IMG/VR virus record: IMGVR_UViG_3300021956_000030
Location: 1 to 36,742 of that record
Reading direction: 5' to 3' (one strand)
Length of the DNA stretch: 36,742 bases
DNA from: a virus
Part shown: positions 22,209 through 35,926 of the stretch, piece by piece
Layout: each line of letters opens with the position of its first letter
Position numbering within the stretch: position 1 is the stretch's first letter
Notes under the pieces: generated by a model
What the model was told of the DNA's origin: nothing
What the model saw: the letters and a program-made list of their open reading frames with translations, nothing else
Databases searched by the model: none
Made by a program: the position numbers and the translations under genes

Positions 22209-23303
22209 CTATTTCCCGATCGCCGCAGCAACCTGCGCAGCCATCGCCGCGGCCGCTTCATCCATCAAGTGGGCGTACCGCGCGGTGGTGAGCGGGCTGG
22301 CGTGTCCAAGCAGTCCGCCGATCTGCGGCAGCGTCAGGCCGGCACTCACGGCTACTGAGGCGTAGCTATGGCGCAGGTCATGGACCAGCAGGTCGGACAG
22401 CTTGGCGGTGGTGCGCAGCTCCTGCCAGAGCTTCTGGTATCCGACCAGCGGATGATCGCCATCGCCTTGGATGATCCAATCACTGTTTGATCTGGCGCGC
22501 AGCTGCTCCAGCACCGCCAGCGCCGGCGGTGTCAGCTGAACCAGTCGCGGATGGCCATCGCGGCCGGTTTTGTGGCACTCCGGCGGCACCACCAGCACGT
22601 TTCCCTGCAGCCATTCCCAGCGCGCATCCTTGATCTCTGAGACCCGGCAGCCGGTCAGCAGCAGCAGCCGCACCAGCTGGGCAAACCGCCAGCGCACACC
22701 GGCAGCACCGAACCCATCGAGGGCTGCCATCAGCTGCTGCAGTTCCTCGCGCGTCAGATACCGGCGCCGCTTCCGCTCACCGTTGCCCGGCACCTTGGCG
22801 CAGGGATTGTCCGGCCGCAGCCCCCAGAGGATCGCCAAGTTGAACGCCTTCCGCAGCACCGCTAGGGTCCGGTTGGCTTGGGTGCCGCCGACCGATCGGA
22901 TCAGCTTCATCACCTGCGCGGTCGTCACCTGCTGCACTTTGGTGGTGCCCAGCTCCGGGATAATGTGCGCCTCCCAGATGCTCTTGTATCCGGCGCGCGT
23001 CGAGGCCCTCAGCGTGCCGTAGTGCTCCAGCTGAAGGCGGGCGTAAAGATCTGCCACCGATGGGCCGCGGCGCAGCTTCTGGCGCGCGCTGGTGGGCGCT
23101 TCCCCCTTGGCCACCGCAGCCAGCAGCTTGTGGGCTTCCTCCCGCGCCAGCGTGCGGCTGACGATCGGCAGCCGGCCGATCTTGTGGTGCTGCTGCTTGC
23201 CCCCCGGTTCCCTGAAGCGCAGGTACCAAGTCTCGACCCCGCTCGGCAGCTTCAGGATCCCCAGCCCGGGCACCTTTGTATCAGCGATCCACTCTCTTTT
23301 CAT
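22209..23303 (-). CDS. int: Tyrosine integrase
   Basis: 364 aa, starting at the ATG 23301-23303, which has GGGAGAGG upstream; an ATG 12 bp further out has no such site and overlaps an arm-type repeat. It catalyses site-specific recombination between attP and attB. The N-terminal domain (about 1-75) resembles an arm-binding domain (DTKVPGLGILKLPSGVETWYLRFREPGGK), then a core-binding SAM-like domain (about 83-165) and a catalytic domain with Arg220 (TGCRVSEIK), Lys245, His308-x-x-Arg311 (HDLRHSYAS), His334 and Tyr343 (ARYAHLMDE). All active-site residues are present. It reads away from the putative attP, which lies directly upstream. Confidence 0.95.
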   Translation of the reverse strand: MKREWIADTKVPGLGILKLPSGVETWYLRFREPGGKQQHHKIGRLPIVSRTLAREEAHKLLAAVAKGEAPTSARQKLRRGPSVADLYARLQLEHYGTLRASTRAGYKSIWEAHIIPELGTTKVQQVTTAQVMKLIRSVGGTQANRTLAVLRKAFNLAILWGLRPDNPCAKVPGNGERKRRRYLTREELQQLMAALDGFGAAGVRWRFAQLVRLLLLTGCRVSEIKDARWEWLQGNVLVVPPECHKTGRDGHPRLVQLTPPALAVLEQLRARSNSDWIIQGDGDHPLVGYQKLWQELRTTAKLSDLLVHDLRHSYASVAVSAGLTLPQIGGLLGHASPLTTARYAHLMDEAAAAMAAQVAAAIGK

Positions 23304-23311
23304 GGCCTCTC

Positions 23312-23541
23312 CCATTCGCGCACCATTCGCGCAGATTTGCGCGAATGGCCGTGATTCTGCGCGAACAGCCGTGAGAAGGCAAGGCGGAATCTAGTGGTTG
23401 AATCAGAGGCTTAGTGAGATTCCGTGAGATTCCGTGAGCTGTTCTTAGGCGACTTTTAATCGCTGATTCAATCCAAAAAGGATCTGTAAAAACAAAGACT
23501 TAGCGACCAGTTAGAAAGGCCATTCGCGCAGTATTCGCGCA
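23312..23541. other. Putative attP: arm-type repeats flanking an anticodon-arm-like core
   Basis: Copies or near-copies of CCATTCGCGCA occur at 23312-23322, 23323-23333, inverted at 23338-23348 and 23358-23368, and again at 23520-23530 and 23532-23541. A 10-bp tandem GTGAGATTCC lies at 23414-23433. The centre holds the core at 23449-23463. A core with four arm-type sites on the integrase side and two on the other side, directly upstream of int, is the plan of a lambda-type attP. The assignment is inferred from pattern. Confidence 0.7.
23449..23463. other. Putative attP core (anticodon-arm mimic)
   Basis: GCGA-CTTTTAA-TCGC is an inverted repeat with a 7-nt centre identical to the tRNA-Lys anticodon loop. 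Thirteen bases (23450-23462) are identical to 23574-23586 in the tRNA-Lys gene. Tyrosine integrases often exchange strands over a 7-bp overlap in an anticodon loop. Identity does not continue to the tRNA 3' end. Confidence 0.6.
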
Positions 23542-23546
23542 CTTGG

Positions 23547-23621
23547 GAGCCCGTAGCTCAGCGGTAGAGCGCTCGACTTTTAATCGAGATGCCGACAGTT
23601 CGAATCTGTCCGGGCTCACCA
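23547..23621 (+). tRNA. tRNA-Lys (anticodon UUU), CCA encoded
   Basis: Complete cloverleaf: acceptor GAGCCCG (23547-23553) pairs fully with CGGGCTC (23611-23617); D arm GCTC/GAGC; anticodon arm CTCGA-CTTTTAA-TCGAG (23572-23588) giving UUU; 5-nt variable loop ATGCC; T arm GACAG-TTCGAAT-CTGTC; discriminator A at 23618, then encoded CCA. It is immediately outside the attP-like repeats and has the same 13-bp core. It may replace a host tRNA-Lys split by integration, or supply a tRNA for AAA codons. The last 6 bases overlap the convergent HNH gene. Confidence 0.95.
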
Positions 23622-23960
23622 TTCTCCAGCAGCACGCTGCTGCGCTGTTCGCCTGCGGTGGCAGTTGGCGCACCTTACATCGCACTTGGCGATCTCCTCC
23701 TCGATCACTTGCCAACGCCAGGTCTTTCCAATGGCTTTGCCAATAGGGAAACTTTTTTCGGCTGGATCGCGGTGGTCAAACTCAAGCACCACGGGGTCAG
23801 CCTCGCCGCAGTCAACACAGGGATGCGTCGCCAAGTGCTCTCGGATCAATTCACGGTTCTTGTGGCGCCGCTTTTGATTGGAGGCAGCCGCCTGCTGCTT
23901 GACCTTCTCCCGGTTGCGCTCGTAGTAGGCGCGCTGATACTCGGAGCTATTGGAGGGCAC
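23616..23960 (-). CDS. HNH endonuclease
   Basis: 114 aa, GTG start. A basic helical N-terminus (EYQRAYYERNREKVKQQAAASNQKRR) leads into an HNH nuclease: CVDCG, then VLEFDHRD with the HNH Asp-His, and KCDVRCANCHRRRTA with the second Cys pair and the distal His. All zinc and catalytic positions look intact. The stop lies in the tRNA-Lys discriminator region on the other strand. Such free-standing HNH genes are common in cyanophages and may be homing enzymes; with its neighbour tRNA/attP it could also have entered with the integration locus. The target is unknown. Confidence 0.85.
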   Translation of the reverse strand: MPSNSSEYQRAYYERNREKVKQQAAASNQKRRHKNRELIREHLATHPCVDCGEADPVVLEFDHRDPAEKSFPIGKAIGKTWRWQVIEEEIAKCDVRCANCHRRRTAQQRAAGEW

Positions 23961-23984
23961 ATCCTTTCAACGGCAGCCGACATT

Positions 23985-24242
23985 CTAAGGGCTATCGCAC
24001 CGCATCCGATGGATCTTCCCGGGCGCCTCGGCCGGGTCATCCAACTCGATCATGCGGAAGTCATCGATGCCATGGGTCTCGGCGAAGTGCTGCGCCGCGG
24101 TGTGGGTGGGAAACGGCCCGACGTGCCATGGGCCGATGCTGAGGATGTAGGTCATGGGTGGATGAGCGCGACAGTCGGACAGGTGCTGTTTGATGGCAGC
24201 GGCCATGGCTGCCAGATCATCCTCGCTAAAGGTGACGGTCAT
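23985..24242 (-). CDS. Small hypothetical protein
   Basis: 85 aa; start chosen at 24242 because it overlaps the preceding stop by ATGA. The N-terminal helix TVTFSEDDLAAMAAAIKQHLSDC is followed by MTYILSIGPWHVGPFPTHTAAQHFAETHGIDDFRMIELDDPAEA, a compact alpha/beta pattern seen in small cyanophage proteins of unknown function. A second start at 24155 (MTYILS) would give this second part alone. No catalytic motif seen. Confidence 0.65.
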   Translation of the reverse strand: MTVTFSEDDLAAMAAAIKQHLSDCRAHPPMTYILSIGPWHVGPFPTHTAAQHFAETHGIDDFRMIELDDPAEAPGKIHRMRCDSP

Positions 24243-24454
24243 GCCGCCAGAGCCGCCAGAGCGGCCTTCACGTCGGCGGCTTTGTAGCCGTTGGCGGCCT
24301 CGGTCAGACTGCTGTAGTTGCGGCCCATGCCGGTGCCGGTGCCGACGAGGACGTTGACGGTGCCCCAGCTGAAGAAGGTCACTTGCACTTCGCGACCCTT
24401 GCCGGTGGTGAGCACGAAGGCGTTGTCGGCGACTTGCTGGATCATGGTGGTCAT
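24239..24454 (-). CDS. Small hypothetical protein
   Basis: 71 aa from ATG 24454; a longer form from 24484 would begin upstream of the promoter-like hexamer and is less likely. TTMIQQVADNAFVLTTGKGREVQVTFFSWGTVNVLVG is beta-rich, followed by TGTGMGRNYSSLTEAANGYKAADVKAALAAL. No known motif. It is first in a two-gene - strand unit with the next gene (ATGA overlap), driven from the promoter-like element at 24480-24500. Confidence 0.65.
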   Translation of the reverse strand: MTTMIQQVADNAFVLTTGKGREVQVTFFSWGTVNVLVGTGTGMGRNYSSLTEAANGYKAADVKAALAALAA

Positions 24455-24479
24455 CGGTCGAGTGGCTGTCGATGAATGA

Positions 24480-24500
24480 ATCATACCCCACCGGCAGCGC
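24480..24500 (-). promoter_or_regulatory. Promoter-like element 1 (shared with 28790-28810)
   Basis: On the - strand, GCGCTGCCGGTGGGGTATGAT: a GC-rich block ending in TATGAT, a 5/6 match to the -10 hexamer, about 25 nt before the ATG at 24454. Seventeen of 18 bases (24483-24500) recur at 28793-28810. No TTGACA-like -35 is evident, so an activator-dependent or phage-specific promoter is possible. Confidence 0.45.
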
Positions 24501-24568
24501 GAATCCCCGGATCAGGGTGGTCGGTTTACATCCCGTCACACTTGCAGCATGGTGCGCCCCGTTACCGT

Positions 24569-24775
24569 ATGGGCAGCCGTGCGGTTGCCGTGCCTGCCTT
24601 CATTGTCGAGATCACGGCGAAGGTCATCTACCGATCGGACACCGCAGCCGAGGACCTGCCAGCCGACATCTACAGCCAGCTGTCAGAGTTCATCCGCAAC
24701 GACGACGACATTGTCGATCTAAGCATTGAAGTGTTCCAGCTGCCGGCGGATCTCCGTGGAACGGCACCACATTGA
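24569..24775 (+). CDS. Small hypothetical protein before HNH gene
   Basis: 68 aa from ATG 24569; a GTG at 24590 would give 61 aa. VPAFIVEITAKVIYRSDTAAEDLPADIYSQLSEFIRNDDDIVDLSIEVFQLPADL has an alternating beta and amphipathic pattern and reads like a real folded protein. It overlaps the HNH gene on the same strand by 20 bp, so the two form a + strand pair inside a - strand block. No ribosome-binding site stands out. Function unknown; the start is uncertain. Confidence 0.5.
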   Translation: MGSRAVAVPAFIVEITAKVIYRSDTAAEDLPADIYSQLSEFIRNDDDIVDLSIEVFQLPADLRGTAPH

Positions 24776-25055
24776 CGAAACTCGGCTGGTCACCCGGCGA
24801 TCAGCCCGCGATCAGATACACCTGGCATGGGATCACCGCTGCGCCTACTGCGGCGACCAGCTGGGCCGCAGCCCCACCCTCGACCATGTGATCCCAAAGG
24901 TGCATGGCGGTCTCACCGTGCGGGAGAACCTGGTCAGCTGCTGCTTCATGTGCAACAGCCGCAAGGGCCACAAGCACTGGGTTGACTGGTTCCGGGCTCA
25001 GCCGTTCTGGACCGCGGCCCGGGAGTGGGCCGTCATCCAATGGCTGGCTCAGTAG
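24756..25055 (+). CDS. HNH endonuclease
   Basis: 99 aa from GTG 24756 (GGCGG 5-9 nt upstream); a TTG at 24726 would add 10 residues. It has an intact HNH core: CAYCGDQL, then TLDHVIPKVHGGLTVRENLVSCC with the conserved DHVIP and GG..NLV, and CNSRKG with the second Cys position. Free-standing enzymes of this type nick or cut DNA and are common near cyanophage accessory genes. This one differs from the HNH gene at 23616 in motif order and surrounding residues, so they are not recent duplicates. Target unknown. Confidence 0.85.
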   Translation: MERHHIDETRLVTRRSARDQIHLAWDHRCAYCGDQLGRSPTLDHVIPKVHGGLTVRENLVSCCFMCNSRKGHKHWVDWFRAQPFWTAAREWAVIQWLAQ

Positions 25056-25222
25056 TAGGTCACGTAAATCTCGGCCTGCCATAGGTCGATCGTGTACCGG
25101 CAGATCCCACCGCTTTGGCCGCAAGCGCGATACAGCGGCATCCCGTCGTCGTCGATCATCACGTCAATCCATCGCCCCTCGCCCCTCTCCAGCCGTTCGA
25201 TCACTTCCCGTTCCGTCGTCAT
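25049..25222 (-). CDS. Small hypothetical protein
   Basis: 57 aa from ATG 25222. TTEREVIERLERGEGRWIDVMIDDDGMPLYRACGQSGGICRYTIDLWQAEIYVTYY, cited here by its ends, has a helix then beta-strands. The 3' end overlaps the convergent HNH gene by 7 bp, and the 5' end overlaps the upstream - strand gene by 59 bp. The long overlap lowers confidence slightly. No function recognised. Confidence 0.55.
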   Translation of the reverse strand: MTTEREVIERLERGEGRWIDVMIDDDGMPLYRACGQSGGICRYTIDLWQAEIYVTYY

Positions 25223-25544
25223 ACAGATCACACCGCGCGGCAAACCTTCCACCAGTCTGGCGGGCTTCCGGGAACCCGAACGAGCACTCTCCCGCCAGCG
25301 GCAGCCACTGGCAGCAGCTCCAGCAGGCGACCTTCTTCCGGTATATCTCCTTCACTTCCTCGATCGGCTGCTTCATGCGAAGCGCCAGGTAGTGGTACTG
25401 CGCCCGAAGGTACGCCTCACGCATGTCAGGCGTGCCAAGGTCAATCTCGATCTGGTCCGATCGCGGCATTCTCACAATCGCCCGCCAGTTCTCGCACAGT
25501 GAGCGTCGATCGATCTGCAGGCGGCCGTGATAGAAGCTGATCAC
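25164..25544 (-). CDS. Cys-rich hypothetical protein
   Basis: 126 aa, GTG start overlapping the upstream stop (GTGA). The N-terminal part is helical (TPDMREAYLRAQYHYLALRMKQPIEEVKEIYRKK). From residue about 72, CWSCCQWLPLAGECSFGFPEAR...RFAARCDLY, four or five Cys with conserved-looking spacing suggest a zinc site. I recall similar 'GECSFGFPEAR..G.RFA..C' proteins in cyanophages, without known function. The C-terminus overlaps the next gene by 59 bp. Confidence 0.6.
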   Translation of the reverse strand: MISFYHGRLQIDRRSLCENWRAIVRMPRSDQIEIDLGTPDMREAYLRAQYHYLALRMKQPIEEVKEIYRKKVACWSCCQWLPLAGECSFGFPEARQTGGRFAARCDLYDDGTGSDRTAGEGRGAMD

Positions 25545-25777
25545 TTGTCTTCGCCGTATGCCGGCGCGTGAAACTGACGCTCTAACTGCAAGCTAGGTGG
25601 CTCCAGCTCATCGATCAACACGCTGAGCAGGTGCACGGCCTCGCGGTCAGTGCTGCGAGCGCGGCAAATGATGTCGTGGTTGTCGTGCATCTTGGCCACC
25701 AGCAAACCGATCCGCTTGCTGCGATACAGCACCGCCCAAGCGAGCCGCTCGATCAGGTTCAATCCCTTAGGCCTCAT
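25541..25777 (-). CDS. Small basic hypothetical protein
   Basis: 78 aa. RPKGLNLIERLAWAVLYRSKRIGLLVAKMHDNHDIICRARSTDREAVHLLSVLIDEL, cited by its ends, is helical with a central hydrophobic stretch but no clear membrane helix. It overlaps the downstream gene by GTGA and the upstream DUF3310 gene by 11 bp. Function unknown. Confidence 0.6.
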   Translation of the reverse strand: MRPKGLNLIERLAWAVLYRSKRIGLLVAKMHDNHDIICRARSTDREAVHLLSVLIDELEPPSLQLERQFHAPAYGEDK

Positions 25778-25976
25778 CGGTCAGCTTGCGAAGGTACCAG
25801 TTGGCCTTTTTGAGTGACTCTTCGCCACCTTTGTGACGCTCGCGCCAGATGTACTTCAGCGCGTTGCCTTTGCAGAATCCCCGGAATTCCTCAGGAGTCA
25901 GCGCCGCCTCGATGGCGTCGATGCACTCGATGCCCCCCTGGATGTAGTGCTCCGGGTTGTTGACTGGATCAATCAT
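25767..25976 (-). CDS. DUF3310-family protein
   Basis: 69 aa from ATG 25976. DPVNNPEHYIQGGIECIDAIEAAL...GFCKGNALKYIWRERHKGG..SLKKANWYL is the DUF3310 signature (NxPxHY...E.ID.I...F..GN..KYI.R...K......L.KA..YL). The family is widespread in phages, often beside nucleotide-metabolism genes, and is sometimes annotated as nucleotide-kinase-like without direct proof. Here it follows thyX, overlapping it by 8 bp, which agrees with a nucleotide-related role. Confidence 0.85.
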   Translation of the reverse strand: MIDPVNNPEHYIQGGIECIDAIEAALTPEEFRGFCKGNALKYIWRERHKGGEESLKKANWYLRKLTDEA

Positions 25977-26595
25977 GGAAAGCAGCCTCAGAAATGGTGG
26001 GGAACTGTTCGGCAAAGATCGCTTGGCAACCTTCAGCGATCAGCCGGTGCTCCAACTGGGTCTCAGGCCCGGTGCGAACCTCGATGTAGTGCAGCCAGCT
26101 GCGCAGCGTGCCGTGCATGTACAGCGTCGTGGGCGTGCAGAGCGGCAGGATCCGGCGAGCCGTCTCCTTGGCCACACCCTGCAGCAGCATGTTCTGGTAC
26201 GTCAGGAAGGCCGCGGCGATCACACCACCGGCATCCATCTGCAGGGCATCGACCACCTCAGGATCAAGGTCGTCGGTGCTGTTCTGCCGGTTGGCGGTGT
26301 CCTGCCGGCGCAATGCCGGGATCTCGGCCTGGCCGGTCTCGGCATACCGGGTGCTGAACTCTTGGAAGCTGAACGACCGGTGACGCAGGATCTGCGCAGC
26401 AATGTCACGCTCGGTGTCGATCTTGATGCACAAGCTGGCCATCTCAAATGGTGACCAGTGCCAATGCTTGATCAGGTACTGCAGCAGCTTCGGCGCTGTT
26501 GCCGTGTTGTCGGCGTTGGCAGGGTTGCTCACCCTGGCCATCTTGACAATGAGCTGCTCAGCGTTCGGCGTGCAGTGGATGAAGGTGGTGGTCAT
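25969..26595 (-). CDS. thyX: Flavin-dependent thymidylate synthase
   Basis: 208 aa, near the usual ThyX length. It makes dTMP from dUMP using FAD and methylenetetrahydrofolate. The signature RHRx7S is present at 71-81 (RHRSFSFQEFS), followed by TRY. The C-terminal half has ETARRILPL (144-152) and TLRSWLHYI...TQLEHR, the dUMP-binding helices. Picocyanobacterial hosts and cyanophages typically use ThyX. It overlaps the upstream gene by 4 bp (ATGA) and DUF3310 downstream. With dCTP deaminase (21692-22207) it would direct host dCTP into phage thymidine. Confidence 0.95.
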   Translation of the reverse strand: MTTTFIHCTPNAEQLIVKMARVSNPANADNTATAPKLLQYLIKHWHWSPFEMASLCIKIDTERDIAAQILRHRSFSFQEFSTRYAETGQAEIPALRRQDTANRQNSTDDLDPEVVDALQMDAGGVIAAAFLTYQNMLLQGVAKETARRILPLCTPTTLYMHGTLRSWLHYIEVRTGPETQLEHRLIAEGCQAIFAEQFPTISEAAFHD

Positions 26596-26804
26596 GCTTT
26601 GCGCTTCTGTTCAAGGGACTCGGCCATCCTTGCGGCAGACCGCAGGATTTCAGACAGTGGTGAAACACTGGCGCGTTCATCAGCAGCAAACCGCAGTGCA
26701 TAACGCACGCCTTGGCTGATGTTGCCGTTGCCAAGCCTGAGGGCAGTCGCTCGATCGCGTGCAGACAGCCGCACGCCAGCGACGCAGGAGCTGAATTCAG
26801 CCAT
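26592..26804 (-). CDS. Ribbon-helix-helix-like small protein
   Basis: 70 aa from ATG 26804. AGVRLSARDRATALRLGNGNISQGVRYALRFAADE has a beta-strand, a helix, a turn with GN(G)NxSxGxR, and a second helix, the layout of CopG/Arc-type DNA-binding proteins. The C-terminus is an amphipathic helix. Upstream residues to 26867 are Cys/Arg-rich and not likely translated. It could be a small regulator of the early block. Its position between thyX and a 150-aa protein, with short overlaps on both sides, indicates one operon. Confidence 0.6.
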   Translation of the reverse strand: MAEFSSCVAGVRLSARDRATALRLGNGNISQGVRYALRFAADERASVSPLSEILRSAARMAESLEQKRKA

Positions 26805-27249
26805 TGGAAACCTCCGACTTAGGCACCGGCAGCGCCCAGTGAGGCAAGCAGTGGGTGTAATCATCATGGGAGAAAGAGATCATGCGGGAATCAATAAACT
26901 CCCACCATCGGCAATTTCCTTCGTTCCAAACCCAGCATTTTTGGTTTGCATCACACCACCCCTCGCGCTCCCAGGGCCGCTTGCTCACCGAGATGGGGGT
27001 GATAGTAGGGCGGACAGCAGCCTGAGCGCACTCCCAGAACCTGGCCGCAGCAGCCGGGCCGTCCAGGCTTTCCCTAAGCCGCAACCAGGAATCCCACAGC
27101 TCCTCATCCGTCGGCCCCTGCGGCTCGGGCTGGGCCAGAGCGGCGCGGGCGGCCTTCATGGCGTTGTCCAGCCTCATGTAAGGATTCATGCCGGTGTACT
27201 CATCTGTAGCAGCCAGCAGCTCAGCGCACAGTGCGCGAAAGTCAGTCAT
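26797..27249 (-). CDS. Hypothetical protein (cyanophage small-protein family)
   Basis: 150 aa from ATG 27249. It begins TDFRALCAELLAATDEYTG, then a segment ending RAALAQPEPQGPTDEELWDSW, then PWEREGWCDANQKCWVWNEGNCRWWEFIDSRMIS, with a Trp/Cys-rich DUF551-like end (HCLPHWALPVP). The 'DFRALCAEL...ALAQPEPQGPTDEEL' leader recurs in many cyanophage proteins joined to different ends; the C-terminal module appears in phage proteins of unknown function. It overlaps both neighbours by a few bases. No activity predicted. Confidence 0.72.
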   Translation of the reverse strand: MTDFRALCAELLAATDEYTGMNPYMRLDNAMKAARAALAQPEPQGPTDEELWDSWLRLRESLDGPAAAARFWECAQAAVRPTITPISVSKRPWEREGWCDANQKCWVWNEGNCRWWEFIDSRMISFSHDDYTHCLPHWALPVPKSEVSNG

Positions 27250-27424
27250 TGGCCGGCTCCATTGCAACGCGGACGTCCCGACCGATGCCGCAGGTTCCCC
27301 AGCGGTACAGATCCATGTGAACATGGGCGCCAGCAAAGTTAAAGCCGACGCGGTGTGGTGACGGATCAGAGTTGATCCACCACAGCTCACCAATGCGGCC
27401 TTGGTCAGAGTCGATGTTGATCAT
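27242..27424 (-). CDS. Small hypothetical protein
   Basis: 60 aa. INIDSDQGRIGELWWINSDPSPHRVGFNFAGAHVHMDLYRWGTCGIGRDVRVAMEP, given by its ends, is beta-rich with several aromatics. It overlaps the downstream gene by 8 bp and starts with ATGA at the stop of the upstream micro-gene, supporting translation. No function recognised. Confidence 0.6.
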   Translation of the reverse strand: MINIDSDQGRIGELWWINSDPSPHRVGFNFAGAHVHMDLYRWGTCGIGRDVRVAMEPAND

Positions 27425-27528
27425 TCGGGCAGGGTCTCCAGGGCGCGGCGGGTGGCGATGTCACGCGGGTTATTACTGGCGCGTTCAACATGCGCCCAAA
27501 GCTCAGGCGTTGCTTTGTAGTCAGTCAT
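27421..27528 (-). CDS. Micro-protein
   Basis: 35 aa: TDYKATPELWAHVERASNN, then PRDIATRRALETLPE. It overlaps both neighbours by ATGA (27421-27424 and 27525-27528), so it is almost surely translated. TPELWxHVE is a recurring start in small cyanophage proteins. Too short to assign a role. Confidence 0.6.
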   Translation of the reverse strand: MTDYKATPELWAHVERASNNPRDIATRRALETLPE

Positions 27529-27794
27529 TCCCACCCCTTCACCAGCTCGGCGCGGATGGTGCGGATGCACGCCTCAGCGTGATGCTCGGCGAGGTGCGAG
27601 TCAGTGCCGCCGATCGCCTTCACGCAGGCGGCCTTGATGTCGGCCCAGTCCATGTCGCGGAGGTGGTTGGCCACATCCTTGGAAAACTCAGCCCAGAGGC
27701 CGGTGTAGGTGCCACAGGTACGGCCGCTGTTGCGGTACAGCGCCATCATCATGTCGGCGCGGCGCTGGTCAAGCTGGATTTGGTTCAGTGCCAT
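27525..27794 (-). CDS. Small hypothetical protein
   Basis: 89 aa from ATG 27794, within the longer open frame. ALNQIQLDQRRADMMMALYRNSGRTCGTYTGLWAEFSKDVANHLRDMDWADIKAACVKA, cited by its ends, is helical, and HLAEHHAEACIRTIRAELVKGW is a His-rich helix that could bind metal. ATGA overlap with the micro-gene downstream; 26-bp overlap with the gene upstream. Function unknown. Confidence 0.6.
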   Translation of the reverse strand: MALNQIQLDQRRADMMMALYRNSGRTCGTYTGLWAEFSKDVANHLRDMDWADIKAACVKAIGGTDSHLAEHHAEACIRTIRAELVKGWE

Positions 27795-27951
27795 CGGTGT
27801 TGAGGATTGTGTAGAGGTTGTTGGCTTCCTGCCATGCCGTGCAGTCTGGCGGAAGTTGGTCCATGCGAGCGCGCAGCATGTTGCAGATGCGCTCGCGTTC
27901 GTAGCAGCGGCCAAACTGATACAGGCTGGCCGCCGTCATCAGTTCAGGCAT
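27769..27951 (-). CDS. Small hypothetical protein
   Basis: 60 aa. PELMTAASLYQFGRCYERERICNMLRARMDQLPPDCTAWQEANNLYTILN, cited by its ends, is helix-rich with two Cys. It overlaps the upstream gene by 13 bp and the downstream one by 26 bp. The helix pattern reads as a real protein of unknown role. Confidence 0.55.
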   Translation of the reverse strand: MPELMTAASLYQFGRCYERERICNMLRARMDQLPPDCTAWQEANNLYTILNTDGTEPNPA

Positions 27952-28175
27952 TCGATCAGCTTCACAACGGCATCAGGCCAGCGGTTCTGGGCATACATCA
28001 CCGCCTCCTTCTTGCCTTCGGCGAACAGGATCATCCGCATCGGTGGAGCATATGGCGCGCGCACCAGCAGCCGGTACGCCTGAGTAGGGTTACCGGCGAC
28101 GGCACGGGTGACGCTTTCACCGCTGGGCGTTGTCTGAACTTCATCCCAGTTCAGTACGACATTTCCCATGCTCAT
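27939..28175 (-). CDS. Small hypothetical protein
   Basis: 78 aa; the ATG at 28173-28175 overlaps the upstream stop (ATGA), and a second ATG is two codons in. SMGNVVLNWDEVQTTPSGESVTRAVAGNPTQAYRLLVRAPYAPPMRMILFAEGKKEAVMYAQNRWP, cited by its ends, starts with beta-strands and ends in a helix-turn pattern. No known motif. Confidence 0.6.
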   Translation of the reverse strand: MSMGNVVLNWDEVQTTPSGESVTRAVAGNPTQAYRLLVRAPYAPPMRMILFAEGKKEAVMYAQNRWPDAVVKLIECLN

Positions 28176-28339
28176 TGTTCATCATCCATTGGTGTGAGCC
28201 ATTCGATCTCATTGGCGTTCCCGCAGTATTCGTGCTGCACGATGATGCGAGCCTCAGCAGCTGATGATGCGAACACGCATTCGTAAACGTTGCAGCTCGG
28301 GATGCGGAAATGGAAGCGGCGATCGGTAATGAGGGTCAT
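28172..28339 (-). CDS. Small hypothetical protein
   Basis: 55 aa, too short for usual gene callers. TLITDRRFHFRIPSCNVYECVFASSAAEARIIVQHEYCGNANEIEWLTPMDDE, cited by its ends, has a ferredoxin-like strand-helix-strand feel (FASSAAEARIIV.H). Both ends overlap their neighbours by ATGA (28172-28175 and 28336-28339), which is good evidence that it is real. Confidence 0.6.
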   Translation of the reverse strand: MTLITDRRFHFRIPSCNVYECVFASSAAEARIIVQHEYCGNANEIEWLTPMDDEQ

Positions 28340-28470
28340 CGTTGTTGTGTGGTGGGATGATCAATCTGGTACTGGTGCGTGCGGCCGTCGCGGACTCCGG
28401 CGCAGTAGGAACAGATCAACAGCGCTAACGCGGCGGTGCGCATGATCCAAGGTGCGGAAAGGTTGCTCAT
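28336..28470 (-). CDS. Micro membrane protein
   Basis: 44 aa. Residues 5-23 (SAPWIMRTAALALLICSYC) are hydrophobic and form a single probable membrane helix; the rest is polar (GRTHQYQIDHPTTQQR). ATGA overlaps on both sides. It immediately follows the membrane-anchored HTH gene in the same unit, so the two might work together at the membrane. This is inference. Confidence 0.55.
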   Translation of the reverse strand: MSNLSAPWIMRTAALALLICSYCAGVRDGRTHQYQIDHPTTQQR

Positions 28471-28658
28471 GCCAGTGCTTTGCGGACTTGGTAACGGGAA
28501 ACGTTGAGGCGATCGGCAATCTGCTGCTGGCTGAGGCCGGTGCGGCGCAGTAGCCGGGCGCGGCGATCGGTGGAAGCTGTGAGCCAGTCGATGATGGCGA
28601 GCAGAACCAGAAGCGGGAAAAACAGCTTCCAGACCAGAAAAAGGGTGGTGGTGATCAT
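28467..28658 (-). CDS. Membrane-anchored helix-turn-helix protein
   Basis: 63 aa from ATG 28658; upstream in-frame residues are low-complexity and unlikely to be coding. Residues 2-27 (ITTTLFLVWKLFFPLLVLLAIIDWLT) form one transmembrane helix. A basic linker (STDRRARLLRRTG) leads to LSQQQIADRLNVSRYQVRKAL, a helix-turn-helix of the resolvase/HTH_23 kind. The arrangement puts a minimal DNA-binding domain just under the cytoplasmic membrane. A role in tethering phage or host DNA, or in regulation, is inferred. ATGA overlap with the micro membrane protein. Confidence 0.7.
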   Translation of the reverse strand: MITTTLFLVWKLFFPLLVLLAIIDWLTASTDRRARLLRRTGLSQQQIADRLNVSRYQVRKALA

Positions 28659-28789
28659 GGGTGAAGCTTGAATTGGGTTGGCGGCTTTGCACCGCTTCGG
28701 CCTCGATTGGTGACGCGGTCGTGTGACTGTTCCCGCGGGAGGCTCCTTGTGGCTTGCGCCGGGGTGCTTCCGTCCGCCCCATGCCAATA

Positions 28790-28810
28790 ACAATACCCCG
28801 CCGGCAGCGC
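28790..28810 (-). promoter_or_regulatory. Promoter-like element 2 (shared with 24480-24500)
   Basis: On the - strand, GCGCTGCCGGCGGGGTATTGT; 17 of 18 bases in 28793-28810 equal those at 24483-24500. The end TATTGT is a weaker -10 match (4/6). It lies about 130 nt before the first gene of the - strand block at 28658, leaving a long leader that contains the palindrome TCCCGCGGGA (28731-28740). Confidence 0.4.
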
Positions 28811-28811
28811 A

Positions 28812-29138
28812 TCAGTCGATGGTCGTGTCACATTCCGTAACAGTCAGGTTGCGGCGTGCCTGGCGGACCTGGGTGGTCGCTCGGCACAGTGCCGTCCGAT
28901 CGACTTCCTCGATGTGCTGCAGCGTCACATCGATCGGCACGCGCAAGACCGGCTTACTCCCGCCTCCGCCGATCGCGGACCATCCCACCGCAAAGTCCGG
29001 CACGACAATCTCAACGCTGAACCATGCGTTGCCGCAGTCTTGGCACACACGCTTCCGCACGGTCTGGGTGGCGCTCCGGCTGTTGACGGACGGCGTTCGG
29101 GTCTTTGTGCTCTGGCATCGCTTGCATTGCATTGGCAT
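28812..29138 (-). CDS. Zinc-ribbon protein, NrdR-like N-terminus
   Basis: 108 aa from ATG 29138; a second ATG is two codons in. Cys5, Cys8, Cys32 and Cys35 make a CxxC-x23-CxxC zinc ribbon (MQCKRCQST...VRKRVCQDCGNAWFSVE). The spacing and the basic stretch before the second pair resemble the ribbon of NrdR, the repressor of ribonucleotide reductase, and also phage Ogr-type activators. NrdR's ATP-cone is absent; instead there are about 70 residues of unknown kind (PVLRVPIDVTLQHIEEVD...). A DNA-binding regulator is likely, target unknown. Confidence 0.68.
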   Translation of the reverse strand: MPMQCKRCQSTKTRTPSVNSRSATQTVRKRVCQDCGNAWFSVEIVVPDFAVGWSAIGGGGSKPVLRVPIDVTLQHIEEVDRTALCRATTQVRQARRNLTVTECDTTID

Positions 29139-29162
29139 GATGAGGCGGTGCGCCCCGGGCTG

Positions 29163-29360
29163 ATGAACTTCGGTGAATGGATGGCGGTGGAAATGCCCCT
29201 TGAGAAGCAGTTCCAACTGGAAACGGAAGTGAAGCGGCTGGAGCGTGGCGGAGAGATCGGCCAGCTTGCCGGCCAACTTCTCCGCCAGTGCTACTACCAG
29301 CAGGATCTGCTCCAGTCGGCCGTCAACGAGATCGCCCGGCTGGAGCTTCAGCTGATGTGA
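29163..29360 (+). CDS. Small helical protein on opposite strand
   Basis: 65 aa from ATG 29163. NFGEWMAVEMPLEKQFQLETEVKRLERGGEIGQLAGQLLRQCYYQQDLLQSAVNEIARLELQLM, cited by its ends, is almost entirely helix with heptad-like spacing. The (N)FxEWMAxEMPLEKQFQLExExxxLE start is one I recall from cyanophage proteins of unknown function. It is a single + strand gene in a - strand block, starting 25 bp from the divergent zinc-ribbon gene and ending 1 bp from the convergent SSB-like gene. Confidence 0.72.
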   Translation: MNFGEWMAVEMPLEKQFQLETEVKRLERGGEIGQLAGQLLRQCYYQQDLLQSAVNEIARLELQLM

Positions 29361-29741
29361 TCAGAACAGGTCGGCGTCGGTGACATCAAGCACCACGCCT
29401 CCGGTTGCCTGAGCCAAGCTGGCTGCAGCAGCAGGGACAGCCTGCGCATCCTCGATCGCCTTCTGGACTTTGTAGTCCGGCTTTGCGACAATGCTCAGAT
29501 ACTTCACCCCGCTGTTGGCAGTCTTTGCCCAGCCGCTGAGCCGCACCGGGATCTCTTGCCGATCACCCTGTGGGACCGCGTTCATCAGGTACTGCGCCAG
29601 CGCATACGCCTGGTCAGCCGGCACGTTCAGCACGCCGTCGAACTCTGGGTAATTCTTCCCGGCTTCATACTTGTCGCCCATCCGTTTTTGCCAGTCGGCT
29701 GCGGTTTGCTTGAACAGGGCACCATTCACGCTGAAGGTCAT
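29361..29741 (-). CDS. Possible single-strand DNA-binding protein
   Basis: 126 aa. An alpha/beta N-terminus (TFSVNGALFKQTAADWQKRMGDKYEAGKNYPEFDGVLNVPADQAYALAQYLMNAV, cited by its ends) precedes strands (QEIPVRLSGWAKTANSGVKYLSIVAKPD), a linker, and an acidic end DVTDADLF. An acidic tip finishing in Phe is the hallmark by which SSB-type proteins recruit partners. It is the last gene of the operon with RecT and an exonuclease, where phages often carry an SSB. No full OB-fold signature is evident, so the assignment is inference. Confidence 0.55.
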   Translation of the reverse strand: MTFSVNGALFKQTAADWQKRMGDKYEAGKNYPEFDGVLNVPADQAYALAQYLMNAVPQGDRQEIPVRLSGWAKTANSGVKYLSIVAKPDYKVQKAIEDAQAVPAAAASLAQATGGVVLDVTDADLF

Positions 29742-29968
29742 TGTCTGGGTTGAGTAGGTGGGTGGTTGGGCATCCCGCGCAGGTTACGCAGCTCATAGGC
29801 TTCGACCTCCGCAACGGGATATAGGACGCGGCCGCCGATCTTTACAAATCGCGGTCCGCGATTCTGGCTGCGCCAGTTGTCAAGCGTGCTGAGGGTGACG
29901 ACACCGCGCCACCGCTCCGCCAATTCCCTCGGCTGGAGATACCCAGCCTCAGAAGATTTCGTCATCAT
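29738..29968 (-). CDS. Helix-turn-helix protein, excisionase candidate
   Basis: 76 aa; ATGs at 29968 and 29965 are both possible starts. LQPRELAERWRGVVTLSTLDNWRSQNRGPRFVKIGGRVLYPVAEVEAYEL, cited by its ends, is the MerR-like winged helix found in AlpA and many excisionases (LAERW...TLxxWR....GPxFVKIGxRVxYPxxEVxAxE). It overlaps RecT by 20 bp and the SSB-like gene by ATGA. It could direct excision by Int or regulate early genes. No other Xis candidate is visible. Confidence 0.7.
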   Translation of the reverse strand: MMTKSSEAGYLQPRELAERWRGVVTLSTLDNWRSQNRGPRFVKIGGRVLYPVAEVEAYELRNLRGMPNHPPTQPRQ

Positions 29969-30620
29969 GCGTCTGCTCCCTCTCCTGTTTTGTCGCCGGT
30001 TGGGCGATCTTCTGGTTCAACTCTTCCACGGTGGTTTTTGGTGCCTCGGTGATGTCCACCGGCTCAATGTCGATCACTTCCTCCTGAGTCTGGATGCCGA
30101 CCAGCAGCTCGGGGATGTACAGGCGCCCCCAGAAGGCCGCGGCCCGATACCTGATCATCAGATCCGGCATGGTTGCCCACTTGCTGCCGGCCTTGGTTGC
30201 CCAGCCTTCACGCTTTGCCATGGCCATCGTCACCTCAGGGCCGCGCAGTTCCTCACCAGTGCGGATCTCGGTTGCCACCGCGGTGCAGGCCAGCGTGTCA
30301 CCCTTGCCGGTGATGTCATATCGCAGCGGGCTGAAGCGGCCGCAGCCGTTGATCAGACCGATGATGAACTGGCTGGACCAGCTCGGGCGACCGTGGATGA
30401 TATGCAGGTTTTGCATCACCATCAGCGGGTCCATGCCCATTCGGCGGCTGATGTTCAGCGCCACCAAGCAGTTGGCGTACCCCGCCTGCCCCTGGAACTG
30501 CTGGGGAATGAGCGTGCTGCTAGCCAGCGCCTTGGCGATCCGTTGAGCTTCCTCGAATGCCTGGATCCCCGAGAACACGCCGGGCTGGATGGTCGTCAGT
30601 GCGGTGGATTGGTCGGTCAT
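29949..30620 (-). CDS. recT: RecT-like single-strand annealing protein
   Basis: 223 aa. It anneals complementary single strands during phage recombination. The RecT pattern is seen in FEEAQRIAKALASSTLIPQQFQGQAGYANCLVALNISRRMGMDPLMVMQNLHIIHGRPSWSSQF (residues about 21-85, cited by its ends) and in MPDLMIRYRAAAFWGRLYIPELL (about 150-172). The C-terminus ends DDEIF, acidic with a terminal Phe, much like the neighbouring SSB-like protein. The stop of the exonuclease overlaps its start (TGATG), as expected for a RecE/RecT-type pair. Confidence 0.92.
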   Translation of the reverse strand: MTDQSTALTTIQPGVFSGIQAFEEAQRIAKALASSTLIPQQFQGQAGYANCLVALNISRRMGMDPLMVMQNLHIIHGRPSWSSQFIIGLINGCGRFSPLRYDITGKGDTLACTAVATEIRTGEELRGPEVTMAMAKREGWATKAGSKWATMPDLMIRYRAAAFWGRLYIPELLVGIQTQEEVIDIEPVDITEAPKTTVEELNQKIAQPATKQEREQTHDDEIF

Positions 30621-31498
30621 CAGTAGGTCTCGATTTCGGTGATGGTGGGCATGGTGCCGTCAGCTTTGGGCCGCATCCATGCAGGCAGGCTGATGGGCTC
30701 AATCTGGTCGCTGTAGCCAGGCCAGGCATCGGCGGCTTTGCAGACCGCCAAGGTGTCAAGATCCAGCCGTGCCTGCTTTGCACCGGCGTCGATCATCTCC
30801 GCGTCAGCGGCGTAAACGGCGACAGCGTGCGGGGCACGTTTCTCGACACAAACGAACAGGAACTGTTCTGGCCGGCGGCCGGTGGCGCGCTCAACGCCGT
30901 CCAGATACCAGGCCGCTTGCACGTGGTACCGAAAATTTGCGATCGACTTGCGGAACCCTGCCGGGCTTGCGTCCTCTGTGGTCTTCAGGTCCACGATCAG
31001 CCTGCCATCCGTAGTCAGCCAGTCCGGCCGGCATTTGCATTGGAGCCCGGTGGCCGCATCGTGCCACATCCATGTCGTCTCTGCTGCTCCGGGCAACTGG
31101 AGCAGCATCGCTGCCGCTGGGTGGTTCCGCACCGCACGGCCCATGGCCAGCACCAGGTCGGCGTCGTTGCGGCTGATCACCGTGCGGCCTGCAGCATCGG
31201 CCTCAAAGGCTGCCCATGCTTCCTTGCCGGCCTTGGTGCGCCGATCGATCGCCTCAGGGCCTGCGATGTAGCGCGCGCCCCATTCGCCGGGTTCAAGGAT
31301 GTGAGTGTGAACCGCGGTGCCCAGCAGCATGGCAGGCGTCGGCTCAGGCTCGACCCGTTTCGGATCCACATAGCGGGCCCAGTAATGCAGCGGGCTGCGC
31401 GCCACCAGGTCGAGATGGCTCTTCGAGACCGCCGCGTGGCGGTGATATTCGGTGTTGTCCAGTGGATCCCATTCATCAGGGCTCTCAGAACTTACCAT
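30620..31498 (-). CDS. PD-(D/E)XK exonuclease (RecE/YqaJ-like)
   Basis: 292 aa from ATG 31498, with GGAAGGGG 9 nt upstream; an open frame continues upstream to 31630 but would cross the divergent promoter region. It degrades one strand at DNA ends to give substrate for RecT. The nuclease core is visible: GTAVHTHILEPGEW (motif I helix), CKCRPDWL with the catalytic Asp, IVDLKTTEDA with the D-x-K, and FRYHVQAAWYLDG with Gln-x3-Tyr. The layout fits the DUF3799/PDDEXK type. It is first in the - strand recombination operon, and its stop overlaps the recT start. Confidence 0.92.
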   Translation of the reverse strand: MVSSESPDEWDPLDNTEYHRHAAVSKSHLDLVARSPLHYWARYVDPKRVEPEPTPAMLLGTAVHTHILEPGEWGARYIAGPEAIDRRTKAGKEAWAAFEADAAGRTVISRNDADLVLAMGRAVRNHPAAAMLLQLPGAAETTWMWHDAATGLQCKCRPDWLTTDGRLIVDLKTTEDASPAGFRKSIANFRYHVQAAWYLDGVERATGRRPEQFLFVCVEKRAPHAVAVYAADAEMIDAGAKQARLDLDTLAVCKAADAWPGYSDQIEPISLPAWMRPKADGTMPTITEIETY

Positions 31499-31600
31499 CG
31501 GCTCATTCCCCTTCCTGCTTTTTCCCGCTAACCCACTGATTTTATTTGGCTTTCCGGTCTCTGACTCGGATACCACTAAGCCAGTCGCGGGTCTAGTCCT
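31499..31600. promoter_or_regulatory. Divergent control region of the early operons
   Basis: 102 bp between the starts of the exonuclease (-) and helicase (+) genes. It is more AT-rich than its surroundings, with TAAAAT on the - strand (within 31535-31550) as a -10 candidate. It must hold promoters for both operons unless transcription enters from elsewhere. No clear repeats or operators were seen. Confidence 0.4.
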
Positions 31601-32971
31601 ATGAGTCTCACTCTCCGTACCTATCAGCACCGGGCCATCTCAGACCTTCGCCTCGCCTTCCGCGACGGTTTTCGCGCCCCCCTGCTCGTCATGCCGACCG
31701 GTGCCGGCAAAACGATCGTCATGGCCGAGATCATGCGAACCCTCGCCGATCGCGGCCGCAGCGCCATGGTGCTGGTCCATCGCCGAGAGCTGATCGCCCA
31801 GACCGCCGCAAAGCTGCAGCTGGCAGGCGTCAAGCACGGCATCATCGCCGCCGGTGTCGCAGAGACCCCCGCGTCTGTTCAGATCGCATCCGTACAAACG
31901 CTTGCGCGCCGGCTGGAGCGTGTCACCACGACCCCGGATCTGATCCTGATTGATGAGGCGCACCACGCCACCGCAGGCAGCTGGAGCGCCGTACTGGCCC
32001 ACTGGCCTGACGCCTTCCGCCTTGGAGTCACCGCCACACCCGCTCGATTGGATGGCCGCGGCCTATCTGCGGTCTTCGACCGCCTTGTTCTTGGCCCGTC
32101 TGTCGCGGACCTGATTTTTCTTGGCCATCTCAGCCAAACCCGCATCTACGCCCCGACCGTGCGGGCGGATCTTTCAGGTATGCAAAAACGTGCAGGTGAC
32201 TATGCCATTGGCGATGCTGCCAGCCGCATGGATCGGCCCACAGTCACCGGTGACGCCATCGATCACTACCAACGCTTGGCCGCCAATCAGCGCGCGATCG
32301 TGTTTTGCTGCACAGTTCAACACGCCGAAAATGTCGCCGCGTCATTCCGTGCAGCTGGCATCCCTGCCGCCACCCTGCTCGGGCAATCACGCAATCGCGA
32401 TCAGACCGTGGCTGATTTCGCGGCCGGTGACCTGCAGGTGCTGGTGACGGTTGACGTGGTCTCAGAGGGTTTCGACATCCCTGCCGCAGGTTGCGCCATC
32501 CTGCTTCGACCCACCGCCAGCCTCGGCCTTTACCTTCAGCAGGTCGGCCGTGTGCTCAGGCCAGCGCCAGGCAAGACGCAAGCCGTCATCCTTGATCACG
32601 TCGGCAACGTCCACCGCCACGGGTTCCCCGATGATCCGCGGGACTGGACCCTGGAGGATGGCATCCGCAAGACCCGCGGCGCCGGTGACGCTGCTCCATC
32701 GGTGCGGACCTGCCCCAGCTGCTATGCCGCGTTCAAGCCGGCGCCTGAGTGCCCGGTGTGCGGTGCAGCGTGTGCGCCGTCGCCCCGGGAGCTGAAGCAG
32801 GTGGAGGGTGAGCTGCAGGAGCTGAAGCGGGAGGGCATCCGCCAGCGTGTTGCCGAACGGAAGAAGGCCCGCACCTTTGAGGAACTGATCAAAGTCGGCA
32901 TCGCCCGCGGCATGAAGAACCCCGCCGGCTGGGCTCGGCACGTTTACTTTGCCCGGCAGCAGCGCCCGTGA
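31601..32971 (+). CDS. SF2 helicase, RadD-like
   Basis: 456 aa. A DEAD/DEAH-box helicase that unwinds DNA or remodels replication or recombination intermediates. Motif I MPTGAGKT (31-38), Ia VHRRELIAQ, II DEAH (118-121), III TATP (144-147), V TVDVVSEGFDIP and VI QQVGRVLRP are all present. The C-terminal region has a four-Cys zinc site (CPSC...CPVC, about residues 365-390) followed by a charged helix. Architecture is close to bacterial RadD. It is first in the + strand replication operon and overlaps the VRR-NUC gene by GTGA. Confidence 0.92.
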   Translation: MSLTLRTYQHRAISDLRLAFRDGFRAPLLVMPTGAGKTIVMAEIMRTLADRGRSAMVLVHRRELIAQTAAKLQLAGVKHGIIAAGVAETPASVQIASVQTLARRLERVTTTPDLILIDEAHHATAGSWSAVLAHWPDAFRLGVTATPARLDGRGLSAVFDRLVLGPSVADLIFLGHLSQTRIYAPTVRADLSGMQKRAGDYAIGDAASRMDRPTVTGDAIDHYQRLAANQRAIVFCCTVQHAENVAASFRAAGIPAATLLGQSRNRDQTVADFAAGDLQVLVTVDVVSEGFDIPAAGCAILLRPTASLGLYLQQVGRVLRPAPGKTQAVILDHVGNVHRHGFPDDPRDWTLEDGIRKTRGAGDAAPSVRTCPSCYAAFKPAPECPVCGAACAPSPRELKQVEGELQELKREGIRQRVAERKKARTFEELIKVGIARGMKNPAGWARHVYFARQQRP

Positions 32972-33360
32972 TCGTGCCCAACGCCGAGACCAACCTCCAG
33001 CAGCAGATCCGCTTGGCGGTTGGCACGCGGCCTGATGCGCGGCTGTTTCGGAACCAATGCGGTGCCCTCCCCGATCCTCGCACCGGCCGCCTGGTCACCT
33101 TCGGCCTGGCGCGCGGCTCAGCTGATCTGATTGGCTGGCGCACCGTGGTGGTCACCCCCGACATGGTTGGCCAGCGCCTGGCCGTGTTCACCTCGATCGA
33201 GATCAAGACCCCCACTGGCCGGCTACGGCCCGAGCAGCAGGCATGGCTTGGCGTAGTCCGAGGTGCTGGTGGCATCGCTGCTGTCGCTCGGTCTGTTGCA
33301 GATGCCGAAGCGGCACTGTCCAACCTGCCAACCTGTTCCCTAAACTCCGAGAGCGCATAG
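32968..33360 (+). CDS. VRR-NUC nuclease
   Basis: 130 aa, GTG start overlapping the helicase stop. The VRR-NUC fold is a small PD-(D/E)XK nuclease, often a Holliday-junction or flap resolvase in phages. Motifs: N-terminal E-x3-LQQQIRLAV, FRNQCGAL, GxxxGSADLIGW (the catalytic Asp), and TSIEIKTPTGRLRPEQQAWL with E-x-K. The conserved Gln in RPEQQAWL is present. Seven bases separate it from the primase-helicase gene. Location between a helicase and a primase fits processing of replication intermediates. Confidence 0.92.
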   Translation: MIVPNAETNLQQQIRLAVGTRPDARLFRNQCGALPDPRTGRLVTFGLARGSADLIGWRTVVVTPDMVGQRLAVFTSIEIKTPTGRLRPEQQAWLGVVRGAGGIAAVARSVADAEAALSNLPTCSLNSESA

Positions 33361-33367
33361 GCCATGC

Positions 33368-35413
33368 ATGACCACCCCACCACTCATCGATCACCTTGAC
33401 CTGCTCCCCGATCACTGGGGCCTGGTCGCAGTCGGCAACGACAAGCGCCCATACCAGCCCGAGTGGCAGAAGCACCCCCTCACCAAAGACCAGCTCGCCA
33501 CCGAGATCCACGCCGGCCGTGCCGTAGCCGTTGGCGTCGTCGCTGGTCCGCAGTCCGGCGGCCTGCTGTTTGTCGATCACGATGGTCTCGGCGCCTCCGA
33601 GGTGCTGGAGCAGATCGGCGCACCCCTGCGCGAGTTACCTAAGTCATGGGCCGTCACATCCGGCCGTGATGGCCGGCTTCAGATCATCTATCAGGTGCCC
33701 GAACCCTTCTGGGCCACCATCAAGACCACCAAGCTCCGCAGCTCGATCAAAGGCGAGCAGCTGGAACTGCGCTGGGCTGGCTGTCAGTCCGTCGTCGCAG
33801 GCGCTCACCCGATCACCGGCGCATACCGCTGGATCAAGGGCCGTAGCCCGGGCGATCTCCCCCTTGCCGAGGCGCCGTCGTTGTTGCTCCAGCAGATGCA
33901 ACGGCATCAACCTGAGCCGACACCTTTGCTCCGACTCCCAGAGCCAGACAGTCAACGCGCGCGTGATTTTCTTAGCCGCATCCCTGCCGCTGATGCCGAC
34001 GATTACGACACCTGGGTCAAGGTCGGAATGGCGCTGCACAGCGTCGGCGACGACAGCCTGTTGCAGGACTGGATCCACTGGTCAGCCGCCTCAGGCAAGT
34101 TCGAGCCCGGCGTCTGCGATGCGAAGTGGAAGACCTTCAACGCCTCAACCGGTGGCGTCAGCCTTGGCACCCTCGCGCACATGGCCGGCCATGAAAAAAG
34201 CCGCCCGGTCACCACATCCGAGCGGCAGTCGCAGCCATCCCCACCACAGGGACACGAGAAGCCTACTGCCAGGCCCGACAAGCTGCTGAAGCTGGAGTCC
34301 GACGAACTGCTCAGGCTGCTGCGCCAGCAGCTCGGGCAGAGCCTCCGCTGGAACATTTTCACCAAGGCGATCGAGCTGGATCAGAAGCCGATCGAGCACA
34401 TTGAGCACTTCTACCTCACGCTCTCGCAGCAGGGCGTCAAGGTCACCAAGGACCTGGCCGCCGATGCCGTCCATGTCGTTGCGCTGGAGAACCCTTACGA
34501 CCCGGTCCGCGAATACTTGGAGCACGTCGCCGATCACGTGCCACCGGCGCCGATCGACCACCTTTCAACGGCCTATCTCCGTCCCACCGACCAGCCCGGC
34601 AGCCTCTACGACGCCATGCTCAAGGCCACTCTCATCGCCGCCGTCCGGCGCGTCTTCGAGCCCGGCTGCAAGCATGACTCGGCCTGCGTCCTGATGGGGC
34701 CGCAGGGCTGCGGCAAGTCCACCTTCTGGCGCAACCTTGGCGGCCTCTGGTTCAGCGATGCACTCCGCGACATCGGCAGCAAAGATGACCTCATGGTGCT
34801 GCACCGCAGCTGGATCATGGAGTGGGCCGAGCTGGATCACATCACCGGCCGGAAGCACGCCGGCCAGATCAAGGCGTTCCTCACCCAGCAGACCGATCTT
34901 TTCCGCGCGCCGTACCAGCGCACCACCGAGTCCTTCCCTCGGCGCTCGATCATCGTTGGCAGCACCAATCGAGACACCGGCTTCTTGGTAGATGACACCG
35001 GCAACCGGCGGTTCTGGGTCATCCCCGTCACGGCATCCCCGCATGTCCCCGTCGATGGCCTGCTTCTGGAGCGTGACGCCATTTGGAGCGCAGCCGTCGC
35101 CGCATATCGCGCAGGTGAGCCCAACCACCTCGGACGCGAACACGCCGAGCAGGTGGACCAGGAAAACGAGACCTACCTAGTGGACAGCCCCTGGCAGTCG
35201 GCGATCGAGGAATGGCTTAGCAGCCATCGCCAGACCCTCAGACCTATCACCAGCGAACTGTTGTTGACCGAGGCGATCGGCAAGCCGGTCGAGCGCCAGG
35301 GGCGTGCCGATCAGATGCAGGTGGCCTCGATCCTGCGCGGGTTGGGCTACGAAAAGAAGCGCGCATGGTTGGAAGGTCGGAACAAATGGGTGTTTGTCCA
35401 ACCTCCAAAATGA
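33368..35413 (+). CDS. Primase-polymerase / VirE-type helicase
   Basis: 681 aa. The main replication protein: primes and unwinds phage DNA. Residues about 10-175 form a bifunctional primase-polymerase domain, with metal-binding VDHDG (69-73) and QLELRW (131-136). Residues about 195-275 form a PriCT-2-like domain (RDFLSRIPAADADDYDTWVKVGMAL). Residues about 410-600 form a VirE/D5-like ATPase, with Walker A GPQGCGKS (444-451), a Walker B-like IMEWAELD (483-490), GSTNRDTGFL (531-540) and NRRFWVIPV (547-555). The same order occurs in many phage and satellite replication proteins. An initiator and origin are not visible; a structured, repeat-bearing gap follows. Confidence 0.92.
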   Translation: MTTPPLIDHLDLLPDHWGLVAVGNDKRPYQPEWQKHPLTKDQLATEIHAGRAVAVGVVAGPQSGGLLFVDHDGLGASEVLEQIGAPLRELPKSWAVTSGRDGRLQIIYQVPEPFWATIKTTKLRSSIKGEQLELRWAGCQSVVAGAHPITGAYRWIKGRSPGDLPLAEAPSLLLQQMQRHQPEPTPLLRLPEPDSQRARDFLSRIPAADADDYDTWVKVGMALHSVGDDSLLQDWIHWSAASGKFEPGVCDAKWKTFNASTGGVSLGTLAHMAGHEKSRPVTTSERQSQPSPPQGHEKPTARPDKLLKLESDELLRLLRQQLGQSLRWNIFTKAIELDQKPIEHIEHFYLTLSQQGVKVTKDLAADAVHVVALENPYDPVREYLEHVADHVPPAPIDHLSTAYLRPTDQPGSLYDAMLKATLIAAVRRVFEPGCKHDSACVLMGPQGCGKSTFWRNLGGLWFSDALRDIGSKDDLMVLHRSWIMEWAELDHITGRKHAGQIKAFLTQQTDLFRAPYQRTTESFPRRSIIVGSTNRDTGFLVDDTGNRRFWVIPVTASPHVPVDGLLLERDAIWSAAVAAYRAGEPNHLGREHAEQVDQENETYLVDSPWQSAIEEWLSSHRQTLRPITSELLLTEAIGKPVERQGRADQMQVASILRGLGYEKKRAWLEGRNKWVFVQPPK

Positions 35414-35420
35414 GGTTGGA
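35397..35420. terminator. Stem-loop at the end of the replication gene
   Basis: Perfect 9-bp inverted repeat (35397-35405/35412-35420, TCCAACCTC and GAGGTTGGA) with a 6-nt CAAAAT loop, spanning the stop codon. There is no T-run, so it would be a non-classical terminator or an RNA-stabilising hairpin. AACCT recurs at 35455, 35464 and 35472, and small hairpins TAACC/GGTTA (35471-35484) and TTAC/GTAA (35482-35493) overlap. The rest of 35421-35613 shows no gene. Confidence 0.5.
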
Positions 35421-35865: not shown

Positions 35866-35886
35866 TTCCCGATAGCTCACGCATCT

Positions 35887-35914: not shown

Positions 35915-35926
35915 TACCCTTGGCCC

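Follow-up and report, generated by a model that had tools for sequence, protein, structure and literature searches.

The window analysed here is a stretch of viral DNA of 36,742 nucleotides (IMG/VR record IMGVR_UViG_3300021956_000030, positions 1 to 36,742). It encodes an intact tyrosine integrase of 368 amino acids on the minus strand (22209..23315) with arm-binding, core-binding and catalytic domains (Pfam PF00589, PF13356 and PF14659, including Arm-DNA-bind_3 and SAM-like domains). Next to this gene lies an attP bearing arm-type sites. In the P arm (23312..23365) TTCGCGCA occurs at 23315 and 23326 and TGCGCGAA at 23338 and 23358; the P' arm (23520..23540) holds a direct pair of TTCGCGCA at 23523 and 23534. 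The arm-type direct pairs have the form GCGCGAAT..TGCGCGAATGG at 23312-23332 and 23520-23540 with the core in between, and pairs like those of the P arm are also seen upstream of the integrase gene in relatives. A preliminary description, made from the letters of the window, had likewise placed the core between arm-type repeats directly upstream of an intact tyrosine integrase.

The attP core is GCGA-CTTTTAA-TCGC (GCGACTTTTAATCGC, 23449..23463, plus strand) and contains a predicted 7-bp overlap, CTTTTAA (23453-23459, plus strand). Thirteen of its bases (CGACTTTTAATCG) are found again in the anticodon arm of a phage tRNA-Lys(UUU), as had been described; with up to two mismatches the 15-mer occurs at only two sites in the window, the core and the tRNA, against 0.02 expected in shuffles. 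The core takes the place of the anticodon loop in classic tRNA 3' halves, and its position relative to the integrase gene is the loop position in at least 40 relatives bearing such halves, so that its status as the attP core does not depend on the argument in the preliminary description. The 13-bp match, treated there as the unit, is present in the window, but phages of the same layout keep a shorter stretch: the part common to 11 of them is only GACTTTTAATC (11 bp, 23451-23461, plus strand), and one (L139) keeps less. RNA stems around the core are not kept in the comparison of attP sequences. Most matches of the bare core in viral_contigs were in unrelated sequence or in tRNA-Lys genes that other phages carry; the only match from the family (L069) belongs to a second record (L020/L069) that is 99.95% identical over window positions 22670-36742 (14 kb), attP region included.

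Two IHF-like sites were recognised at the level of sequence pattern. The first, AATCAGAGGCTTA (23401..23413, plus strand), lies 52 bp before the overlap and recurs there in nearly all attP; across 48 attP the mean score at this offset is 7.0 of 9, the median over offsets being 2.6. The second, AAACAAAGACTTA (23490..23502, plus strand), lies in the interval between the core and the P' arm; a site at -32/-33 from the P' arm is present in 10/10 of the tabulated attP with the window's layout. This lambda-like anatomy, in which the IHF-like sites are putative, speaks for a working attP in the window.

Just outside the P' arm, on the same strand as the core, is a complete tRNA-Lys(UUU) (23547..23621, plus strand, encoded CCA to 23622; ARAGORN), which scores 91.5 bits with a covariance model. 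Neither a promoter nor a terminator was recognised in the attP of the window. The end of a small open reading frame on the minus strand (23616-23960) overlaps the 3' end of the tRNA; its product contains the Cys-pair motifs CVDC and CANC and has no Pfam match, and a similar sequence adjoins the attP in two relatives (L029 and L030).

A search of viral_contigs (IMG/VR) gave 31 relatives of the integrase, most of them 58-90% identical, and with the relatives added by an arm-pair scan there were 101 loci with an integrase match, representing 53 distinct near-full-length integrases. Nearly all relatives carry a tRNA 3' half, from the anticodon loop to the CCA, at an equal distance upstream of the integrase gene (half type), and the isotype of this half is Lys, Phe, fMet, Asn, Thr, Arg or Gly. 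The window and ten further phages (L086, L092, L104, L108, L112, L136, L137, L139, L146 and L156) have no 3' half (replace type), so the window attP lacks the stretch from overlap to CCA that marks classic restoring systems. All 11 of these phages contain a complete tRNA-Lys(UUU) on the same strand, 91-97 bp after the overlap start and just outside the P' arm. A full tRNA-Lys of 90-100 bits was found in 11/11 core-only records and the 17 whole records of the half type reach at most 29.2 bits; as these 11 tRNAs also served to build the covariance model, the contrast rests on the absence from half-type records, with which ARAGORN agrees. Among unique integrases the association between layout and tRNA is 10/0 versus 0/41 (p 8e-11, ignoring kinship). 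In the alignment of the 11 tRNA-Lys genes 99.6% of the cloverleaf pair cells are kept and 12 pairs covary with both sides changed; because the tRNAs diverge and yet keep these pairs, they are kept functional. Loop and P' arm are 69-70 apart in replace-type attP, whereas half-type attP show 91, 101 or, in most, ~112; the differences between these spacings (~11, 21 and 43 bp) come close to whole helical turns.

To model attL, tRNA-Lys 5' halves (two alphaproteobacterial, one cyanobacterial) were joined in silico to each attP. With the alphaproteobacterial 5' halves a tRNA-Lys was rebuilt in all half-type phages with enough sequence (L006, which is truncated, was left out). In the replace type it was rebuilt in none, and ARAGORN found only the downstream phage tRNA at ~122-202. 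The 11-bp core of the window gave no tRNA-Lys with any of these three sampled 5' halves; this agrees with the earlier proposal that the attP does not restore the host tRNA.

We therefore favour, with a probability of about 0.82, a reading in which the window phage practises tRNA-dependent lysogeny, the host tRNA-Lys(UUU) gene being split without rebuilding and replaced by the phage tRNA-Lys. Strand exchange by the integrase would join the short core of attP, through its overlap CTTTTAA, to the anticodon loop of the host gene; we infer that attB overlaps a host tRNA gene from the 3' halves that relatives carry at the same position. The host gene would be split and, since the attP has no tRNA 3' half, would not be rebuilt, and the complete phage tRNA-Lys would then supply the UUU tRNA of the lysogen. 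The predicted attL consists of the host 5' half and phage DNA, the tRNA ending after CTTTTAATC, with the phage tRNA-Lys ~94 bp further on. In the lysogen the broken gene would start ~125 bp upstream of the phage tRNA-Lys, which points the same way, so the host tRNA promoter could drive the phage gene; it is the fixed position beside attP that would place it behind this promoter. The preliminary description had proposed such a destroy-and-replace strategy, and the relatives support it strongly, through the strict swap of layouts, the presence of the structurally conserved cognate tRNA only where the half is lost and the in-silico attL. Strand exchange at attB, disruption of the host gene, expression of the phage tRNA and its essentiality are predictions of this reading. 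If it is true, the lysogen needs viral DNA to decode AAA and would resist loss of the prophage. The phage tRNA-Lys, 124 bp away and with the same loop as the core, could also serve as a target for recombination.

Breaking and replacing a host tRNA was already known in mycobacterial viruses. Guerrero-Bustamante and Hatfull (2024) showed tRNA-dependent lysogeny in actinobacteriophages, mostly at tRNA-Lys-TTT and with cores of 8-17 bp (PMC10865867). The strategy is not novel; here it appears in a whole unrelated family of aquatic viruses, with the tRNA built into the attP module. Among 18 papers retrieved for tRNA-dependent lysogeny, no title or opening part of an abstract describes this phage family. 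The window resembles the actinobacteriophages Fionnbharth K4, LeBron L1 and BrutonGaster CQ2 in its tyrosine integrase, its arm-flanked attP, a short core that is presumably used at a tRNA gene, the predicted lack of reconstruction, a phage tRNA of the same isotype (often Lys-TTT) and sisters with a restoring half (PMC10865867). This precedent is experimental and agrees with the window in isotype and core size, and so counts for tRNA-dependent lysogeny in the window, which matches in all features checked here, attB and the requirement for the tRNA being presumed. The window differs in belonging to another phage family, known from sequence, whose host is probably proteobacterial; actinophage integrases are only ~26% identical among the matches listed. 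Its family has the tRNA 91-97 bp from the overlap in 11/11 phages, whereas the Fionnbharth tRNA overlaps gene 37 and has its own promoter (PMC10865867). A rhizobial case has also been reported, in prophages of Sinorhizobium meliloti like Mesorhizobium phage Lo5R7ANS; these use tRNA-Leu(UAG) and were described from lysogens, whereas here only the attP is seen (PMC11476347). Classic anticodon-loop integrases with a restoring half include Boilgate and the relatives L003-L012 and L152. These relatives have the same integrase family, arms and core position as the window, which lacks their 3' half, so that the host tRNA would not be rebuilt.

The 2024 study left open the frequency of tRNA-dependent lysogeny outside actinobacteriophages and its relation to classic restoring systems (PMC10865867). 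The present family adds eleven candidate phages, and its sister phages of different mode open the switch between layouts to study. The integrase tree calls for four or more changes of layout, each required by well-supported branches, and it rejects a grouping of the replace type in one clade (p 9e-64). The sister integrases of L137 (replace) and L152 (half) differ in mode, and between these two phages identity breaks at the core and resumes after the tRNA. In the pairs L086/L108 and L136/L156 the flanks are nearly identical and the tRNA-Lys genes differ, which looks like exchange as a cassette. Swapping of the right side of attP, and not repeated invention, may lie behind the changes of layout. 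Within these pairs the tRNA-Lys acceptors read GAGCC.G or GGGCCCA, and one gene has an extra downstream stretch (TTGTTCGTAC..). A tentative extension, which we think somewhat doubtful as a whole, is that the tRNA-Lys lacks its own promoter and becomes active only after correct integration, through a captured host promoter that would serve as a built-in check of insertion, and that the side from core to tRNA is a cassette exchanged by crossover at the core, converting restoring phages into replacing ones and back.

Phage tRNAs often have roles in lytic translation or in resistance to anticodon nucleases of the PrrC type, which cut tRNA-Lys. The study of actinobacteriophages itself brings up PrrC (PMC10865867). 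The tRNA-Lys could have such a role here, the short core being a separate matter of a decaying attP or of secondary sites; the different tRNA-Lys genes between near-identical flanks would fit exchange under selection. We regard this as improbable, as the tRNA is found only in phages without a half, always 91-97 bp from the core and on the same strand, AAA accounts for only 17% of the Lys codons of the phage, and the coupling of half loss to tRNA presence over at least four changes on the tree would be left unexplained. It is less probable still that the full tRNA-Lys is the real attP core and 23449-23463 a decoy or relic: the tRNA has the same CTTTTAA loop and the 13-bp match, but it lies outside the P' arm, and 23449-23463 is the centre of the arm and IHF-like sites, with the spacing seen around the cores of relatives.

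The structural genes are nearest to those of Synechococcus phages; the nearest isolates are the siphoviruses S-LBS1, S-CBS1 and S-CBS3 (terminase 47%, capsid 39%, primase 50%), none of which is among the integrase best matches listed, and for S-LBS1 the att sites are reported to lie within the portal and helicase genes (PMC6157547). A cyanobacterial host, as first supposed, is not supported. The sampled cyanobacterial tRNA-Lys(UUU) closes its anticodon loop with GG..CC, and the classic halves of the family rebuild a tRNA-Lys with alphaproteobacterial 5' halves and not with the cyanobacterial one. In 386 genomes of the cyanobacterial phylum a search for the L010-type tRNA-Lys half came up empty, as did searches for two further tRNA patterns in 38 and 50 of them. 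Agreement of the Phe and Lys halves with alphaproteobacterial tRNAs is 43/45 and as high as 44/45, compared with 32-33/45; the Asn, Arg and fMet halves do not tell hosts apart. These comparisons make an alphaproteobacterial host more likely than a cyanobacterial one. Two sampled alphaproteobacterial genomes have one tRNA-Lys(UUU) each among the loci read, whose arm contains GACTTTTAATC, and both also gave a CUU tRNA. A CUU tRNA should not read AAA. That the host has several tRNA-Lys(UUU) genes, tolerates the disruption and carries the phage tRNA as a dispensable passenger is very improbable given these single copies and a phage tRNA kept functional over wide divergence.

The search for prophages called for in the preliminary description gave no lysogen of the family: an integrase search of genome_contigs found none, a profile search of the 386 cyanobacterial genomes gave nothing but distant integrases, neither 385 genomes from the alphaproteobacterial class nor 10 from one order contained a lysogen, and attL patterns matched no lysogen or attL/attR junction in viral_contigs. 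This absence is weak evidence.

Some relatives depart from these layouts. In a sub-clade (L099, L132, L109, L111, L121 and L123) Arg, Gly or Thr tRNA 3' halves are reversed between the arms, and ARAGORN calls a whole tRNA-Arg or tRNA-Gly in some members. The distant integrase of L100 has arm-like sites upstream of its gene, with no recognisable tRNA half or core there. In fMet-type attP (L021, L030, L079, L081, L088, L090, L091 and others) a strong hairpin (GCCCGCTAGGTCA..TGACTTAGCGGGC) with a T-rich tail follows right after the 3' half, as if to serve as a terminator for transcription of the rebuilt host tRNA.
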